Below, in pieces: positions 9,913 through 26,743 of a stretch of DNA of 34,641 nt. Made by a program: the position numbers and the translations under genes. The stretch is from a virus, in IMG/VR virus record IMGVR_UViG_3300047322_000627, positions 1-34,641 of that record; one strand, written 5' to 3'. The notes beneath the pieces are model-generated. The model saw only the letters and a program-made list of their open reading frames with translations, did no database searches and was not told where the DNA came from. How positions within the stretch are numbered: position 1 is the first letter of the stretch; every line of letters begins with the position of its first letter.

Positions 9913-10117
9913 TTCGTTCTCCACGTTTTTTTGCTTCGGGCCTTCTCACGAATTCTACTTCAGCCGGGTGAAGATACTGCGCACAGAGCGTCCGTTTATT
10001 CATTATGAACACCAGATCGAGCGCAGCGAACACGCACAGAACCTCGCACGGCGACTCGTCGTGCTTGACGATGTCACCGGGCTTAAGCTGCGTCCGTTTC
10101 TGATTTGTCGAAGACAT
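9854..10117 (-). CDS. Hypothetical protein with a possible frameshift at its end
   Basis: An 87-residue protein. Residues 10-60 (TQLKPGDIVKHDESPCEVL, then FAALDLVFIMNKRTL and LHPAEVEFV) look like a compact beta domain. The last 23 residues (starting RGERNEPQTVRQ) overlap the next gene by 59 bases, unlike the four-base overlaps usual here. Just before that lies GCAAAAAAAC. With one more A, or a -1 shift at A-AAA-AAA, the protein would end after five different residues at a TGA forming the usual ATGA junction. The start at ATG 10117 lies inside the MazG gene and lacks a good ribosome-binding site. Confidence 0.55.
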   Translation of the reverse strand: MSSTNQKRTQLKPGDIVKHDESPCEVLCVFAALDLVFIMNKRTLCAQYLHPAEVEFVRRPEAKKRGERNEPQTVRQVRKNAAGERRR

Positions 10118-10508
10118 AGACGCACGCACCGGTCGCGGCCTCTTGCATGAACACCGTGGAATCAACGCGTCGCGAGACTTCGTTGAATTTTTGCATGACG
10201 GCTTCGCCAAGGTCGATGCCGAACTGCGCCGCCATGATGTCGGCGTACGTGATGAAGTCGGCAAACTCCTTCTGCAGCTTCTCCTTTGCCTCCAGCAGAT
10301 CGCACATGGTGGCGAAGTCGCCGCGACGAATTTTCTTCATCAGGTTCGCGGCCTCGCCAAGTTCTCCAACGACAGCGACCATCCAGTCAGCCGGTGACCA
10401 ATCGCTGCCGTCCGGTTGCGAGTGCGCCGGTTCTCCTTGAGCGTTCTTGAATTGCGGAAGGCGCAGCGTGTTGGCCAGTCGAAGGTCTGCAAACTTGAGT
10501 TGGTTCAT
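10083..10508 (-). CDS. MazG-like nucleotide pyrophosphohydrolase
   Basis: A 141-residue protein of the all-alpha NTP-pyrophosphatase superfamily (MazG/dUTPase-like), which cleaves nucleoside triphosphates to monophosphate and pyrophosphate. The metal-binding motif is present: E49-x2-E52 in GELGEAANLM and E81-x2-D84 in KEFADFITYADI, followed by the FGIDLGEAVMQKFNEVSRRV helix. Phage MazG proteins have been proposed to clean the nucleotide pool or lower (p)ppGpp in infected cells. The TTG at 10520 lies in the ribosome-binding site, so ATG 10508 (overlapping the previous stop as ATGA, GGAG seven bases upstream) is the start. Confidence 0.85.
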   Translation of the reverse strand: MNQLKFADLRLANTLRLPQFKNAQGEPAHSQPDGSDWSPADWMVAVVGELGEAANLMKKIRRGDFATMCDLLEAKEKLQKEFADFITYADIMAAQFGIDLGEAVMQKFNEVSRRVDSTVFMQEAATGACVYVFDKSETDAA

Positions 10509-10759
10509 TTCGTTCTCCAAAGTAATTCAATTACTGGGGTTGACCAGTGACGCCAAAAGCTACGGAGCCAAATGAATCCGTAGACAAAGCAAAGCGTGAA
10601 CATGCCCCACTGGTGGTTTGTGGACGTGCTGAGCATCCAAAGAGGTTGGACGGACAGCCCGAAGAAGCACGCCCATTTCTGGCGCGTCGGATGAAGGCTC
10701 AAGTACGTTGCCGACAACGACATGGCCGCGATGAGCGCTTGGACCAGAGCGTCGATCAT
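10505..10759 (-). CDS. Small polytopic membrane protein
   Basis: An 84-residue Trp-rich protein with two or three membrane segments: about 4-22 (ALVQALIAAMSLSATYLSL), 29-46 (WACFFGLSVQPLWMLST) and 50-68 (QWGMFTLCFVYGFIWLRSFW). The arrangement recalls small PnuC-like or phage 'WGMF' membrane proteins I have seen in early regions. A holin is possible but no lysis gene is adjacent, so I do not call it. The start overlaps the preceding stop (ATGA), and the stop overlaps the MazG start. Confidence 0.65.
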   Translation of the reverse strand: MIDALVQALIAAMSLSATYLSLHPTRQKWACFFGLSVQPLWMLSTSTNHQWGMFTLCFVYGFIWLRSFWRHWSTPVIELLWRTK

Positions 10760-19604: not shown

Positions 19605-21968
19605 ATGATCCCATCCCTTCTTCGCAAGCTATTCACCCGCGCCCAGCCGCAAGCAGTCGCTACGGAAGAAGAGAAGCGGGCAGAAATTCTCGCGGTCGAT
19701 CCGCTCGACCCAATCCAGAATCGCAAAAACTGGATTGACCACGGCCCGCAATTCAAGCTGCGTAGCGCCACCGACTTCCCTGTGTCCGATGCGCTCGCTG
19801 GCGACGACTCCGTAACGACCGTCAAGGCGATTGGCGACGCGGCCCTGAAGCTCAAGAGTCAGGGCGCGATCATGGACGACAGCGATGGCACAGGAATGCT
19901 AAAGGCCAGTCCGTCTGAGTACACCGTGCCAGTCGGTCTTCAAAGCTGGTACATGTCCCAGAGCTTCATCGGCTATCAGGCGTGCGCGATCATCGCCCAA
20001 CACTGGCTGGTGGACAAGGCGTGCTCGATGTCCGGTGAGGACGCGGTGCGCAACGGCTGGGTCATTAAGGCGCGCGGCGGCGACGACTTGGACAAGGAAG
20101 CACACGACCTGATTCTGTCCGCTGACAAGCGCTATTCGGTCAAGGCCAACTTGATCGAACTGAACCGGTTCAAAAACGTCTTCGGCATTCGCGTTGCCAT
20201 TTTCAAGGTTCGCTCTGAAGACCCTTTGTACTACGAAAAGCCGTTCAACATCGACGGCGTGACAAAGGGATCGTATGACGGCATCTCGCAAATCGACCCG
20301 TACTGGATGATGCCGGTGATGACGACTCGCGGCACCAGCGATCCGTCAGACATTCACTTTTACGACCCTGAATTCTGGGTCATCAGCGGGAAGAAGTATC
20401 ACCGCTCGCATCTGTGCATCGTTCGCGGCCCGCAGCCTGCCGACATTCTGAAGCCAACGTACATCTTCGGCGGCGTGCCGTTGACGCAGCGCATCTATGA
20501 ACGGGTCTATGCCGCTGAGCGGACGGCGAACGAAGCGCCCCTGATGGCGATGTCGAAACGAACGATGGCCATTCACGCCGACCTGGACAAAGTAATGGCG
20601 GACCAGGAAGGCTTCGAGCAACGCCTGCTGACGTGGATTCGATACCGCGACAACCACGGCGTGAAGGTGCTGGGAAAAGAGGAAGCGATGGAGCAGTTTG
20701 ACACCAATATGTCAGACTTCGACTCCATCATCATGAACCAGTATCAGCTGGTCGCGGCCATCGCGCGTACGCCTGCCACGAAGCTCCTTGGGACGTCACC
20801 GAAGGGCTTCAACGCCACTGGCGAATTCGAGATGAAGAGCTATCACGAAGAGCTTGAGTCAGTGCAAGAGCACGTGATGATGCCGATGCTCGAAAGGCAC
20901 TATGATATCCTTTGCCGCAGCGAAGGAATCGCCACTGAAGTTGAAGTCGTCTGCAACTCTGTGGACTCGATCACTGCCGCAGAGCGCGCTGAGCTCAACG
21001 ACAAGAAGGCGAACACCGGCATTGCCCTGATCAACGCTGGCGTCATCTCTGCCGACGAAGAGCGCAACCGGGTTAAGGACGACGAGCACAGCGGCTACAA
21101 CCGCCTTGAAGACGCGCCCGCAAACCAGACGCCTGGCATGTCGCCTGAGAATATCGCAGCGCTGCAAAAGGCCGGTTCGGAGCAGGAGAAGGCAAACGCC
21201 GTCAACACCGAAGCCAATGCCGGTGCGATGGTAGCGAAGAAGGGCGAACCCGGCGCGGAAGGCTCCGAAACGGACACCGTAGAAGGCGCTGGAGCGCTCG
21301 CTGGCGACCCGTTGCAGGCGTTGATTCCTGTGATCGCGCACGGTTTAGTGTCCGGAAAGGGCGGCGCGCAGCAAAACGCCGACCCGATGCAACTCGCCAT
21401 CCTCGCTTTGGCGCACGCTGTATTGGGACAGAATAAGCCGCAGGACGGTCCCGCGATCCAAGGAACGCGCCCTGGCACCAGTCGCACGTCCAAGCCCAGC
21501 GTCGTCCCATCAAGCCAACGCGCTGGCGATGCAAAGGTGATCGGCCCGATGGCGGCGCACAAGCTTCCAAAGATGCGCTTGAACGGCTTGAACATCGTCA
21601 TCGAGAATCCGCGCGGCACTGTCCGCGAAGGGATGAACATGGACGGCAGCGAGTGGTCTGTGGAGATGCCTGATCACTACGGGTACATCAAGGGCTTCGA
21701 CGGCGCGGACGGTGACGAAGTGGATTGCTTCATCGGTCCCAACGCGCGTTCCCAAGACGTATTCGTGATCAGTCAGAAGGACGACAACGGCGAGTTTGAC
21801 GAGTACAAGACGATGATCGGGTATGACGACGAAGAGTCAGCCATCGCCGCGTACAACGCTGCTCACGATGAAAACTTCAAGGGTTATGACTCGTGCCAGA
21901 AGATGTCAATGGACGACTTCAAGAACTGGCTCGAAGCCGGTGAGTGCGCGATGCCGCCCAAGGCATAA
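19605..21968 (+). CDS. Portal protein fused to an inorganic pyrophosphatase-like domain
   Basis: A 787-residue protein. The portal part (about 110-480) is of the DUF1073 type: the ring through which DNA enters the head and to which neck proteins dock. Its signature segment TKLLGTSPKGFNATGEFEMK lies at about 393-412. An Ala/Glu/Gly-rich stretch (about 490-655) follows. Residues 657-775 are the 'InPase' domain found in phage and polyvalent proteins: IENPRGTVREG, MPDHYGYIKGFDGADG, then D702-G-D-E-V-D-C708, which fits the family I pyrophosphatase signature D-[SGDN]-D-[PE]-[LIVMF]-D-[LIVMGAC]. The three Asp that bind metal are kept. A DUF1073 portal is normally about 450-500 residues, so the extra 300 are notable. 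The ribosome-binding site is poor. Confidence 0.93.
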   Translation: MIPSLLRKLFTRAQPQAVATEEEKRAEILAVDPLDPIQNRKNWIDHGPQFKLRSATDFPVSDALAGDDSVTTVKAIGDAALKLKSQGAIMDDSDGTGMLKASPSEYTVPVGLQSWYMSQSFIGYQACAIIAQHWLVDKACSMSGEDAVRNGWVIKARGGDDLDKEAHDLILSADKRYSVKANLIELNRFKNVFGIRVAIFKVRSEDPLYYEKPFNIDGVTKGSYDGISQIDPYWMMPVMTTRGTSDPSDIHFYDPEFWVISGKKYHRSHLCIVRGPQPADILKPTYIFGGVPLTQRIYERVYAAERTANEAPLMAMSKRTMAIHADLDKVMADQEGFEQRLLTWIRYRDNHGVKVLGKEEAMEQFDTNMSDFDSIIMNQYQLVAAIARTPATKLLGTSPKGFNATGEFEMKSYHEELESVQEHVMMPMLERHYDILCRSEGIATEVEVVCNSVDSITAAERAELNDKKANTGIALINAGVISADEERNRVKDDEHSGYNRLEDAPANQTPGMSPENIAALQKAGSEQEKANAVNTEANAGAMVAKKGEPGAEGSETDTVEGAGALAGDPLQALIPVIAHGLVSGKGGAQQNADPMQLAILALAHAVLGQNKPQDGPAIQGTRPGTSRTSKPSVVPSSQRAGDAKVIGPMAAHKLPKMRLNGLNIVIENPRGTVREGMNMDGSEWSVEMPDHYGYIKGFDGADGDEVDCFIGPNARSQDVFVISQKDDNGEFDEYKTMIGYDDEESAIAAYNAAHDENFKGYDSCQKMSMDDFKNWLEAGECAMPPKA

Positions 21969-21970
21969 CG

Positions 21971-22828
21971 ATGCCATTCCAAGCCTCCAAGAAGCGCGAA
22001 CGTCGCGCGGCTGAGCCGGTCGCATACGGCAAGCCGCTCGGACCCAGCGCAGCCATTCGTTCGTGGTACGAAGGGCTGATGCTCGCCGTCACGAACGAGA
22101 TGGTGAAGGATTACCGGAAAGAGCTTCAAGAGGCGCTGGAACACCCAGAGGTTGAGGCGTTCTATGCTGAAGATGCCGCTGATTCGGTCTTTCAGCGCGT
22201 CATGCGCCGGTTGAATAGAAAGTGGTCCGAAGTGTTCAGCGGATTCGCGCAGAAGTACGCGCCAGAGTTCGTTGAGAAGGTGGATGATCACTCGAAGTCA
22301 TCCACGTGGTTCAGCTTATCCGCTGCTGGAGTCAAGGAGCCGCGCACGACCTATAATAACAACGTCGCGGCGACGCTTGGTGCGTCCACTGAGTTCAACC
22401 ACACGCTCATAACGAACATCCAGAAGGATGTCCACGAAAAGATTTACAGCGCGGTGATGCTGTCGTTGACGTCGCCTAATCCGGAAGAGCAAGGAGCGTC
22501 TGGAATCCAGAACGCTCTCCGTGAAGCAGGATCGTTCGCGAAGAAGCGCGTTGACCTGATTGCACGTGACCAGACGAGCAAGCTGTACAGCGCGCTATCT
22601 GACGAGAGGTTACGGCAGAACGGTTGCGGGTACTTCAAGTGGCTTCACTCGTCCGCAGGGAAGGTTCCGCGACAAAGTCACGTTGATAAGGACGGCGAAA
22701 TATTCTCATTGGACGATCCGCGCCTATGGGAAGGTCCAAAATCAGATCAGGGACCGCCTGGATGGGCAATCAATTGCCGCTGTAGAAAAATGCCAGTCAT
22801 CGGATACAGAGAAGACGAAAACGAATAA
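21971..22828 (+). CDS. Mu F-like minor head (head morphogenesis) protein
   Basis: A 285-residue protein of the SPP1 gp7/Mu F family, which sits near the portal inside the prohead and is needed for correct heads. The N-terminal half is helical (VTNEMVKDYRKELQEALEHP). The family signature lies at the C-terminus: PRQSHVDKDGEIFSLDDP, GPPGWAINCRCRKMPVIG with the two cysteines. The ATG at 21971 lies two bases after the portal stop; an ATG nine codons upstream overlaps the portal and is unlikely. The order portal then this protein is normal. Confidence 0.9.
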   Translation: MPFQASKKRERRAAEPVAYGKPLGPSAAIRSWYEGLMLAVTNEMVKDYRKELQEALEHPEVEAFYAEDAADSVFQRVMRRLNRKWSEVFSGFAQKYAPEFVEKVDDHSKSSTWFSLSAAGVKEPRTTYNNNVAATLGASTEFNHTLITNIQKDVHEKIYSAVMLSLTSPNPEEQGASGIQNALREAGSFAKKRVDLIARDQTSKLYSALSDERLRQNGCGYFKWLHSSAGKVPRQSHVDKDGEIFSLDDPRLWEGPKSDQGPPGWAINCRCRKMPVIGYREDENE

Positions 22829-23454: not shown

Positions 23455-24948
23455 ATGCCACAGTCCGCACGACAACAAGATCAGAATGGATACCTTCGAG
23501 TTAAGGCCTGTCCCATCTCGTCTTTCGGCATCTTTCAATACTCCGCTGCGCAAATCGGATTGGACGGCGATCCCAACAGAATCGTCAATGTATTTCGGCC
23601 TGAATCAGCCGTTAGTGATCCTGAGTTAATCGAATCTCTGCAAGAGGTTCCGCTGATTGACGATCACGAAATGCTCTCCGGATTCGCTGGCGACAAAGAT
23701 GCGACGGCACCGGAAGACTACGGCATAGACGGCATCCTGTTTGACGTCTTCTACGAAAAGCCCTGGACGCGCGGCGATCTGAAAATCTTCACGCGCAAGA
23801 TGCAGGCTGAGTTGAACGGCGGCAAGAAGGATTTATCTCTTGGATACACGTGCGACTTCCTTCTGGAGTCCGGCACCTTTGATGGTCAGGACTACGAAGT
23901 TGTACAAGTGAACATGCGCGGCAATCACATCGCGCTGGTGGACGTTGGTCGCGTGCCGGGTGCTCGTGTTCTCGACGGTGGGAAGAAGCTGTGCTTTGAC
24001 TCGCTTAATTTTGATGTTTCCATTAACCCTCTTTGCGGAGAGATCATGAAGCGTAAAGCTTTGGACGGTAATGTAGTAGCGACCCTCCAGGCCCAGCTGA
24101 AAGCACTCCTGCCGACCTTCGAACAGTTCCTGAGCGAAGAAGCCACCGAACCCGCGCACCAAGGCGGCGAAGGCGGCGCGGCTGGTGCTGCAGAAGCGGG
24201 CGCTGCGGAAGGCGCGGCAGGTGCCGCTGGCACGGAAGGCGCTATGGCTGCTGGTGGCGAAACGGGCACCGGCGAAGTCGCAGCTGAAGGCGCACCGGGC
24301 GCTGCTGCAGCTGGTGGCGAAGAAGGCGAAACCGACAACGGCGCAGCGGAAGGCGCTGAGGCTGGTGCCGCTGCCGCAGGTGCGGAAGGCGGTGAGCAAC
24401 AGGGCGGCGCTGCGCAACTTATCAGCCAACTCGAAGCCATCTTGGCCCAGCTGAAACAAGCGACGGGCGCTGGCGACGAAGGCAGCGAAGGCGAGGCCAC
24501 CAATGCAGCAGGAGAATCGACCGAAGACACCGTTGAAGGGCTTGAAGGAGCGGCGCGAGAAGGTGCGGATGAAGGTGCGGGCGGCGAGCAAGGTGGCGCG
24601 TCGCAAGGACCGGCAGCAGGAAAGCACGCAGGTGCTGATGCTGCGCTTCGTTCTTTCCACGCTGACCTTGCTCTTAAGAATAGCCTCAGCAACCGGCTGT
24701 CTAAGGTGGTTGGCGCATTTGACGGAGCCTTGGACCTCGCATCTGCAACAGCTGGTGACGTCGCTGTTTACGGGGTGAAGAAGCTGAAGCTCAAGTGCGC
24801 GAAGGGCCAGGAAGCAATCGCCCTGGACGCGTACCTGACCGGCATCGAGTCCGCACGCAGCGTTACCCAAACCCATCAACAATCCAAACGCGCTGCGGAT
24901 GCCGCACAGCAAGAAGTGCCGGCAATCAACGCATACTTCAAGGAGTAA
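23455..24948 (+). CDS. Prohead protease with fused scaffold-like region (DUF2213 type)
   Basis: A 497-residue protein. Residues 1 to about 195 match the DUF2213 pattern, thought to be a head-maturation protease: VPLIDDHEMLSGFAGDKDAT, DLSLGYTCDFLL, and NMRGNHIALVDVGRVPGARV with the conserved His. Residues about 237-395 are an Ala/Gly/Glu-rich, low-complexity linker. About 400-497 are helical (ALRSFHADLALKNSLSNRLS). Protease-scaffold fusions are known in this position; the helical end probably directs assembly and is removed on maturation. The gene precedes the decoration and capsid genes, as expected. A 628-codon frame on the other strand is produced by the skewed composition. Confidence 0.85.
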   Translation: MPQSARQQDQNGYLRVKACPISSFGIFQYSAAQIGLDGDPNRIVNVFRPESAVSDPELIESLQEVPLIDDHEMLSGFAGDKDATAPEDYGIDGILFDVFYEKPWTRGDLKIFTRKMQAELNGGKKDLSLGYTCDFLLESGTFDGQDYEVVQVNMRGNHIALVDVGRVPGARVLDGGKKLCFDSLNFDVSINPLCGEIMKRKALDGNVVATLQAQLKALLPTFEQFLSEEATEPAHQGGEGGAAGAAEAGAAEGAAGAAGTEGAMAAGGETGTGEVAAEGAPGAAAAGGEEGETDNGAAEGAEAGAAAAGAEGGEQQGGAAQLISQLEAILAQLKQATGAGDEGSEGEATNAAGESTEDTVEGLEGAAREGADEGAGGEQGGASQGPAAGKHAGADAALRSFHADLALKNSLSNRLSKVVGAFDGALDLASATAGDVAVYGVKKLKLKCAKGQEAIALDAYLTGIESARSVTQTHQQSKRAADAAQQEVPAINAYFKE

Positions 24949-25603: not shown

Positions 25604-26743
25604 ATGCAACTCTCCAAAACCCGCTCGTCCATCGCTCCGCGCAAAGTGCGCCCGCTGGCGATGGACAGCAAGGAAATCACCGTTGCGGCGGTGAACCAAC
25701 TGGCCGAAAAATTCGGCATCGTGTTCGATCACGCGACCGTGCTGCAGCAAGTTCAGCTGCTTCACGACCATCGCGCAAGCGGCACGATGGACTCGGCGTT
25801 TGTGGCACCGGCAACCGCTGGCTCGCTGCCGACACCGATCCAGTTCCTGCAAACGTGGCTTCCCGGCTTCATCAAGGTGATGACGGCGGCGCGAAAGATT
25901 GACGACATCATCGGCATCAAGAACGTCGGCAGCTGGGAAGACCAGGAAATCGTTCAAGGCATCGTGGAACCGGCGATGACGGCGACGGAATACGGCGACT
26001 TCACGAACATTCCTCTGTCGAACTGGAATACCAACTTCGTCAAACGCACCATCGTGCGCGGCGAACTCGGCATGCAAGTCGGTCTGCTCGAAGAAGGCCG
26101 CAGCGCCGCCATGCGTCTGAATTCGGCGGACACGAAGCGTACTGCTTCGGCAGTCGGTCTCGAAATCTTCCGTAACGCCATCGGCTTCTACGGCTGGAAT
26201 TCGGGCAACAACCAAACGTTCGGTTTCCTGAACGATCCTTCGCTGCCCGCGTTCATCACATCGAGCGTTACGGGTGGCTGGAACGGCACCAACGGCACGT
26301 TCCAAGGCATCACCGGCGACATCCGGATGGCCATCGTCACGCTCCGTACGCAGTCGCAAGATCAGATCGACCCGGAAAAGGTTGAAATGACGCTGGCGCT
26401 GCCGACCGGCAAGGTGGACTACCTGTCCGTGACGACCGACTTCGGCGTGTCGGTGCGCGACTGGCTGGAGCAGACCTATCCGAAAATCCGCGTGGTCTCC
26501 GCGCCGGAACTCGGTGCGGCCAATGCTGGCGCAGACGTGTTCTATCTGTTCGCTGAAGACATCGACAGCGCGGTGGACGGCTCGACGGACGGCGGCGAAA
26601 CGTTCGCCCAGCTGGTGCAAACGAAGTTCGTGACGCTGGGCGTCGAAAAGCGCGCGAAGTCGTACGTGGAAGACTATTCCAACGGCACGGCTGGCGTTCT
26701 TTGCAAGCGTCCGTGGGCAGTGGTTCGCGTCACCGGCATCTAA
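25604..26743 (+). CDS. Major capsid protein (DUF2184 type)
   Basis: A 379-residue major capsid protein with the HK97 fold, of the DUF2184 type, forming the icosahedral shell. Seen are [40 protein letters not shown], then [20 protein letters not shown], and [20 protein letters not shown]. Length and order, with decoration gene before and a terminator after, are normal. The ribosome-binding site AGGAG lies some distance upstream. High codon regularity here agrees with a highly expressed gene. Confidence 0.92.

Follow-up and report, generated by a model that had tools for sequence, protein, structure and literature searches.

A pyrophosphatase-like domain at the C-terminus of a PB1/E217-like phage portal protein

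The portal gene and its neighbors

The stretch of DNA analyzed here (the window) is the virus record IMGVR_UViG_3300047322_000627 at its full length of 34,641 nt. Its portal gene lies at 19605-21968 on the plus strand and encodes 787 amino acids without an internal stop, in which a portal core is followed by a linker and a C-terminal inorganic pyrophosphatase-like (InPase) domain. The gene and the features referred to below are as follows:

19605..21968, plus strand: portal-InPase fusion gene, assigned from its open reading frame (ORF) and from PHROG 4660, which matches across residues 11-784
19869..19880, plus strand: IMDD (residues 89-92), an xMD[DSANE] motif ahead of the core and a putative head-protease site
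19974..21014, plus strand: Phage_portal_3 core, residues 124-470 (PF06381, E = 2.2e-86)
21177..21557, plus strand: linker, approximately residues 525-651, variable and predicted to be disordered (from identity, pLDDT and dN/dS)
21558..21935, plus strand: InPase domain, residues 652-777 (PF18823, E = 2.6e-45)
21708..21728, plus strand: DGDEVDC, a metal-binding signature (D702, D704, D707; PS00387-type match)
21944..22828, plus strand: MuF-like minor head protein, the next gene (PF04233, 1.9e-10; phrog_324, 1.2e-72)
23455..24948, plus strand: DUF2213 head maturation protease, a candidate processing enzyme (PF09979, 8.5e-32; phrog_3778, 1e-139)
25604..26743, plus strand: major capsid protein (phrog_264, 9.6e-72)
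10083..10520, minus strand: weak MazG-like ORF (PF12643 below cut-off; phrog_229, 6e-4)

The portal core scored 290 bits in Pfam (PF06381, residues 124-470; curated cut-off: 33.8), and the protein matched the E217 portal (8fvh) with an E-value of 5e-199. The genes of the head cluster are arranged in the usual order, namely TerL (14120), portal, MuF (21944), DUF2213 protease (23455) and capsid (25604). The original prediction, made from the sequence alone, was that the portal runs on into a C-terminal domain resembling family I pyrophosphatases (PPases), and this was confirmed by the presence of both PF06381 and PF18823 in one 787-residue ORF. The HMMER search against the InPase family gave a score of 154 bits (curated cut-off: 26.8) over profile positions 9-135 of 135. 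No stop or frameshift separates the two domains: the ORF is open throughout, and the identical fusion occurs on a second contig. The extent of the domain had to be revised, from 21573-21965 and 119 residues to 21558-21935 and 126 residues. The window protein is the usual portal of contractile-tailed phages of the PB1/E217-like type, with an InPase domain at its C-terminus.

A MazG-like enzyme encoded in the same window had also been put forward as a partner of the InPase domain. This part of the prediction was not supported: MazG (PF03819) had no match anywhere in the record by profile search, and the ORF at 10083-10520 on the minus strand scored 18.2 bits against PF12643, below the cut-off of 27, with a marginal phrog_229 match. 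A MazG partner was therefore rejected as strong evidence.

Active site and fold of the InPase domain

Residue conservation was determined across 72 non-redundant InPase domains, 29 from portals and 43 from other proteins. Invariant in 72/72 domains were E667, R674, G676, Y692, G693, D702, D707, Q724, F731, D732, E733, K735, A746 and Y750. The position of D704 is occupied by D or E except in single cases. The contigs L007 (DEQDVDC) and L130 (DGQDVDC) have Q at this position, and the portals of both also bear a third enzyme domain; the InPase domains of these two may be decaying or altered.

For comparison with E. coli Ppa we used the residue numbering (without the initiator Met) and the catalytic roles that we take to apply to that enzyme. 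In the profile alignment Y692 aligned to Y55, and D702, D704 and D707 aligned to D65, D67 and D70 (LDGDPVDV aligned to DGDEVDC). The PROSITE-type signature at 21708-21728 is intact, as originally described. A chance origin of this motif was considered and rejected: DGDEVDC is the sole PS00387-type match in the six frames of the window, with approximately 0.1 expected from composition. The original prediction had also hinged on the other catalytic residues, which are kept in part. The Glu is present, E667 being aligned to E20 by global alignment only, as is the Tyr (Y692/Y55). Past the GE of 'DEAGE' the profile alignment of the C-terminal half is unreliable, which leaves the assignment of D97, D102 and K104 tentative; with this qualification, D732/E733 are probably the counterparts of D102 and K735 that of K104. 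K29 is possibly replaced by R674. The column of D97 is not conserved among InPase domains, the R43 segment is absent from the phage InPase alignment, and the profile alignments gave no clear counterpart of Y141/K142. In sequence, the spacing between E667 and Y692 is 25 residues, compared with approximately 35 in E. coli Ppa. Iyer et al. 2017 (PMC5512222) described the phage InPase clade as lacking a beta-hairpin that stands between the first two strands in solved PPases. Because the R43 segment is absent and Y141/K142 are unmatched, we file the domain under the PF18823 InPase clade rather than among canonical family I PPases.

The AlphaFold2 model of the InPase domain had a pLDDT of 90. The best 50 PDB matches of this model in Foldseek were all family I PPases (probability 1.00; TM-score 0.40-0.55 by query length). 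The full-length portal was modeled with a pTM of 0.39, from a shallow alignment and as one protomer of the dodecamer; this model serves only to show a folded InPase domain and a linker with pLDDT mostly <60. As modeled, and as judged from its residues, the InPase domain has a fold like that of family I and keeps the greater part of the metal site. Its PPase activity is predicted, given that only part of the active site maps, and its substrate may be other than plain pyrophosphate (PPi).

Spread of the fusion and other enzymes on portal tails

The joining of the domain to a portal had been called unusual, which did not survive comparison with other phages. Of the 377 phage records retrieved at E ≤ 1e-80 by a tblastn search with the full protein, 344 covered ≥80% of the query; since coverage at this level needs the InPase domain, these 344 records carry the same fusion. 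The architecture is the normal portal type of the PB1/E217-like group, with at least 344 phage records, is captured by PHROG 4660, and was named for Burkholderia phage BcepF1 by Iyer et al. in 2017 (PMC5512222). The fusion records include PB1-like Pseudomonas phages together with phages of Escherichia, Serratia, Xanthomonas, Burkholderia, Pantoea, Erwinia and others. Contig L002 bears the fusion at 100% identity and further relatives bear it at 78-88% core identity, which argues that it is not an accident of sequencing or assembly. Annotations of such genes vary. The whole portal is annotated as 'inorganic pyrophosphatase' in some records, such as that of Luteibacter phage Pluto, and the portal gene of Serratia phage KKP 3709 is split into several annotated ORFs, probably through sequencing errors. 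The 'putative portal' of Achromobacter phage CF418P1 (approximately 2684 aa) is a polyvalent protein with InPase and LPD3 domains; a portal Pfam match was absent in the stretch read.

Among IMG/VR portals of the same family, those with core identity of at least approximately 56% have the InPase domain unless the contig is cut, and those at approximately 52-56% (L163-L165, L167-L189, L191-L193) are devoid of it, most of them stopping shortly past the core. Bordetella phage IFTN7 likewise has a 491-residue portal without InPase. In a tree of the 72 InPase domains, 28 of the 29 portal versions fell into a single group (support 98/94), which also includes a short ORF at the end of contig L048, probably a cut portal. 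The InPase domain of Aeromonas phage Gekk3-15 lay outside the portal group on a very long branch. The simplest reading is a single acquisition followed by vertical descent, with the domain ancestral in the group. Relative to the two closest relatives compared (L031 and L003), dN/dS was approximately 0.14 for InPase, 0.08-0.11 for the portal core and 0.24-0.28 for the linker; by these sequence comparisons the InPase domain is under purifying selection near that of the core. Beyond the closest two relatives, linker identity was mostly 19-35%, against 54-78% in the core.

Several portals of the family carry other enzymes at the C-terminus. Two contigs from two different samples encode a portal-InPase-topoisomerase IB protein (L037:3006-6467, 1154 aa; L007:3613-6930, 1106 aa), with PF01028 matched at E = 4e-22 in L037 and 8e-21 in L007. 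Their topoisomerase domains are 59% identical, their InPase domains are sisters in the tree (100/98), and the L037 domain matches the solved bacterial type IB enzyme 2f4q lengthwise (1e-22). Three contigs encode a portal-InPase-ADP-ribosyltransferase protein of approximately 1050-1250 aa (L012:3905-7117, L011:3905-7072, L130:4617-8357; PF03496 at 3e-25 for L011/L012 and 7e-19 for L130), L011 being assigned through its near-identity to L012. An InPase-less portal of the same family is joined to the anti-CBASS enzyme Acb1 (L173:762-2780; PF23474, 1e-19), with identical-length relatives on L174 and L175. A Mu-type portal (PF06074) joined to topoisomerase IB (L119:3144-5810) apparently represents a fusion independent of the L007/L037 type. 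An HPRxxxGxF-type motif lies between the InPase and third domains at residue 792 of L007, 811 of L037 and 815 of L130 (ORF numbering); it was discarded as evidence, with 17 occurrences against 5 in one shuffle and some of these being near-copies of one locus. Portal-joined ADP-ribosyltransferases (PMC9503650) and 2H domains (PMC5512222) have been mentioned earlier. A limited literature search did not find topoisomerase IB and a phage portal together, and the portal-InPase-topoisomerase IB arrangement of the two contigs appears undescribed.

Virion position, possible role and comparison with known systems

Homologous long portals are built into virions with the barrel on the head side (PMC10329688, PMC11042391, PMC6521218). 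In the E217 portal, residues 97-528 of 765 were built, the C-terminal barrel points into the head and is disordered after ejection, and the portal is retained in the capsid after ejection (PMC10329688). The Pa193 structure covers residues 94-528; density was lacking for 529-765, and LC-MS did not detect 1-93 (PMC11042391). As originally proposed, the InPase domain could sit at the head entrance, be cut off later or be ejected with the DNA; these cryo-EM structures agree with its lying within the head, close to where the DNA enters. The 84.5-kDa portal of SCUT-S1 virions was identified by 44 peptides at 59% coverage (PMC6521218); residues 94-528 can account for at most 57% if the chain is the same 765 residues, so some of these peptides lie outside that segment, and the suggestion is that they most simply come from the C-terminal part. 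The quantitative proteomics of PMC13232282 concern LUZ19, which is outside the PB1/E217-like group.

The linker is 105-155 residues long in relatives and would span at most approximately 56 nm fully stretched, compared with an E217 tail of approximately 150 nm; with the portal staying in the capsid, the InPase domain is thus unable to enter the cell while attached. Of 27 relatives, 23 have the xMD[DSANE] motif, which was picked by eye, in the region ahead of the core; 2 of 27 have it in the linker, where it is not conserved. It may be a site at which the head maturation protease cuts; if so, nothing indicates that cleavage at this motif would release the InPase domain. The major capsid protein (gene 25604-26743) has a similar (A/T)MD[SA] in its N-terminus, before the visible part of the capsid. 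The xMD[DSA] form is shared by portal and capsid and lies near the edges of segments unseen in E217/Pa193.

We somewhat favor a role as a C-terminal cargo enzyme that is tethered in the head, is freed there, leaves with the DNA and acts early. A disordered tether of approximately 127 residues would hold the domain beyond the barrel, on the head side, and up to twelve copies would sit as cargo inside the head. It would hydrolyze either pyrophosphate or a nucleotide bond of similar kind, and this activity would counter host nucleotide chemistry or relieve PPi inhibition. The most likely time of action would be early, after the domain had detached from the portal inside the head and exited with the DNA. 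Conservation of the fusion, purifying selection, the intact DxDxxD, the family I PPase fold of the model, the barrel that points into the head and the enzymes on sister portals support a cargo enzyme; the missing R43 and hairpin, the variable D97, the unmatched Y141/K142 and the Q in place of D704 in L007 and L130 count against it. A literature search found no assay of the portal InPase domain. Because sister phages bear other conflict or DNA enzymes at the same place, the portal tail can be regarded as a cargo slot. That it is a modular, 12-copy slot inside the head, filled by topoisomerase IB or ADP-ribosyltransferase behind InPase and by Acb1 on InPase-less sisters, is a tentative proposal to which we give slightly less than even weight. 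If it is true, a topoisomerase held by its tether at the DNA gate could control DNA topology while the genome is packaged or ejected, or could be delivered with the genome.

What counts against early delivery is also what favors the main rival, in which an active InPase works late in the producing cell, on free portal before assembly, and is packaged merely because it is attached; there it would remove the PPi released as phage DNA and RNA are made, or would degrade a nucleotide signal. The portal stays in the capsid on a tether too short to reach the cell, no conserved cleavage motif was seen in the linker, and nearly every full-length clade member keeps the fusion, all of which a late role would accommodate. 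Most of the other InPase carriers found, however, are polyvalent phage proteins of very large size for which packaging and ejection have been suggested. A late role would be served equally well by a separate soluble enzyme, but what persists is a fusion to a virion component present in 12 copies. We consider late action a real but rather unlikely possibility. Less probable again is that the fold serves as a non-catalytic module, for example one that binds DNA, phosphate, metal or scaffold in the head. Such a module would allow for the canonical catalytic residues that have been lost or could not be mapped, and for the loss of D704 in L007 and L130, but D702, D707, D732, E733, K735, Y692 and E667 do not vary between portals and unrelated polyvalent carriers, which points to a shared chemistry, and InPase-less sister portals of the same family still assemble. 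That two genes were fused by a sequencing or assembly error is refuted by the hundreds of records with the same fusion and the identical second contig; KKP 3709 serves as an example of how errors appear in this gene, and the window itself offers no support for one. Among these readings the tethered cargo enzyme is the one that we somewhat favor.

The window portal is a further example of a published portal-InPase type, and its novelty is low; the pattern of the portal as a cargo slot is the part worth following. What several hundred PB1-like records annotate as 'minor head protein' is a portal whose tail is conserved and resembles an enzyme; some of the phages in these records have been used or proposed in phage therapy, and the tail is the region that is invisible in two cryo-EM papers (PMC10329688, PMC11042391). 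Portals as enzyme carriers, with topoisomerase IB placed where the DNA enters as one case, would bear on how phages deliver enzymes into cells or handle DNA topology.

The closest named system is the BcepF1 portal (YP_001039808.1; L008), which has the same architecture, domain order and linker type, the cores being 67% and the InPase domains 49% identical; it differs in its diverged sequence and in a longer tail of approximately 64 residues past InPase. The E217/Pa193 gp19 portal (8fvh, 9b41; PHROG 4660) is of the same full-length chain type, matching 9b41 by phmmer at E = 2e-241 over residues 101-784, and differs in that its InPase region is not resolved in the structures and the term 'pyrophosphatase' is absent from PMC10329688 and PMC11042391. 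The phage domain resembles E. coli Ppa in the DGDxVD core, YGYI, the IE-x-P strand and the fold, whereas it is approximately 126 rather than 176 residues long, is fused to a portal, lacks the R43 beta-hairpin and does not conserve D97. The Acb1 portals (L173-L175) share the core and a C-terminal enzyme and differ in having an anti-CBASS cargo and no InPase. InPase domains of polyvalent/DarB-like proteins belong to the same Pfam family and have the same invariant residues, but they are mostly internal to proteins of 1000-3400 residues, whereas the portal InPase domains form a clade of their own.
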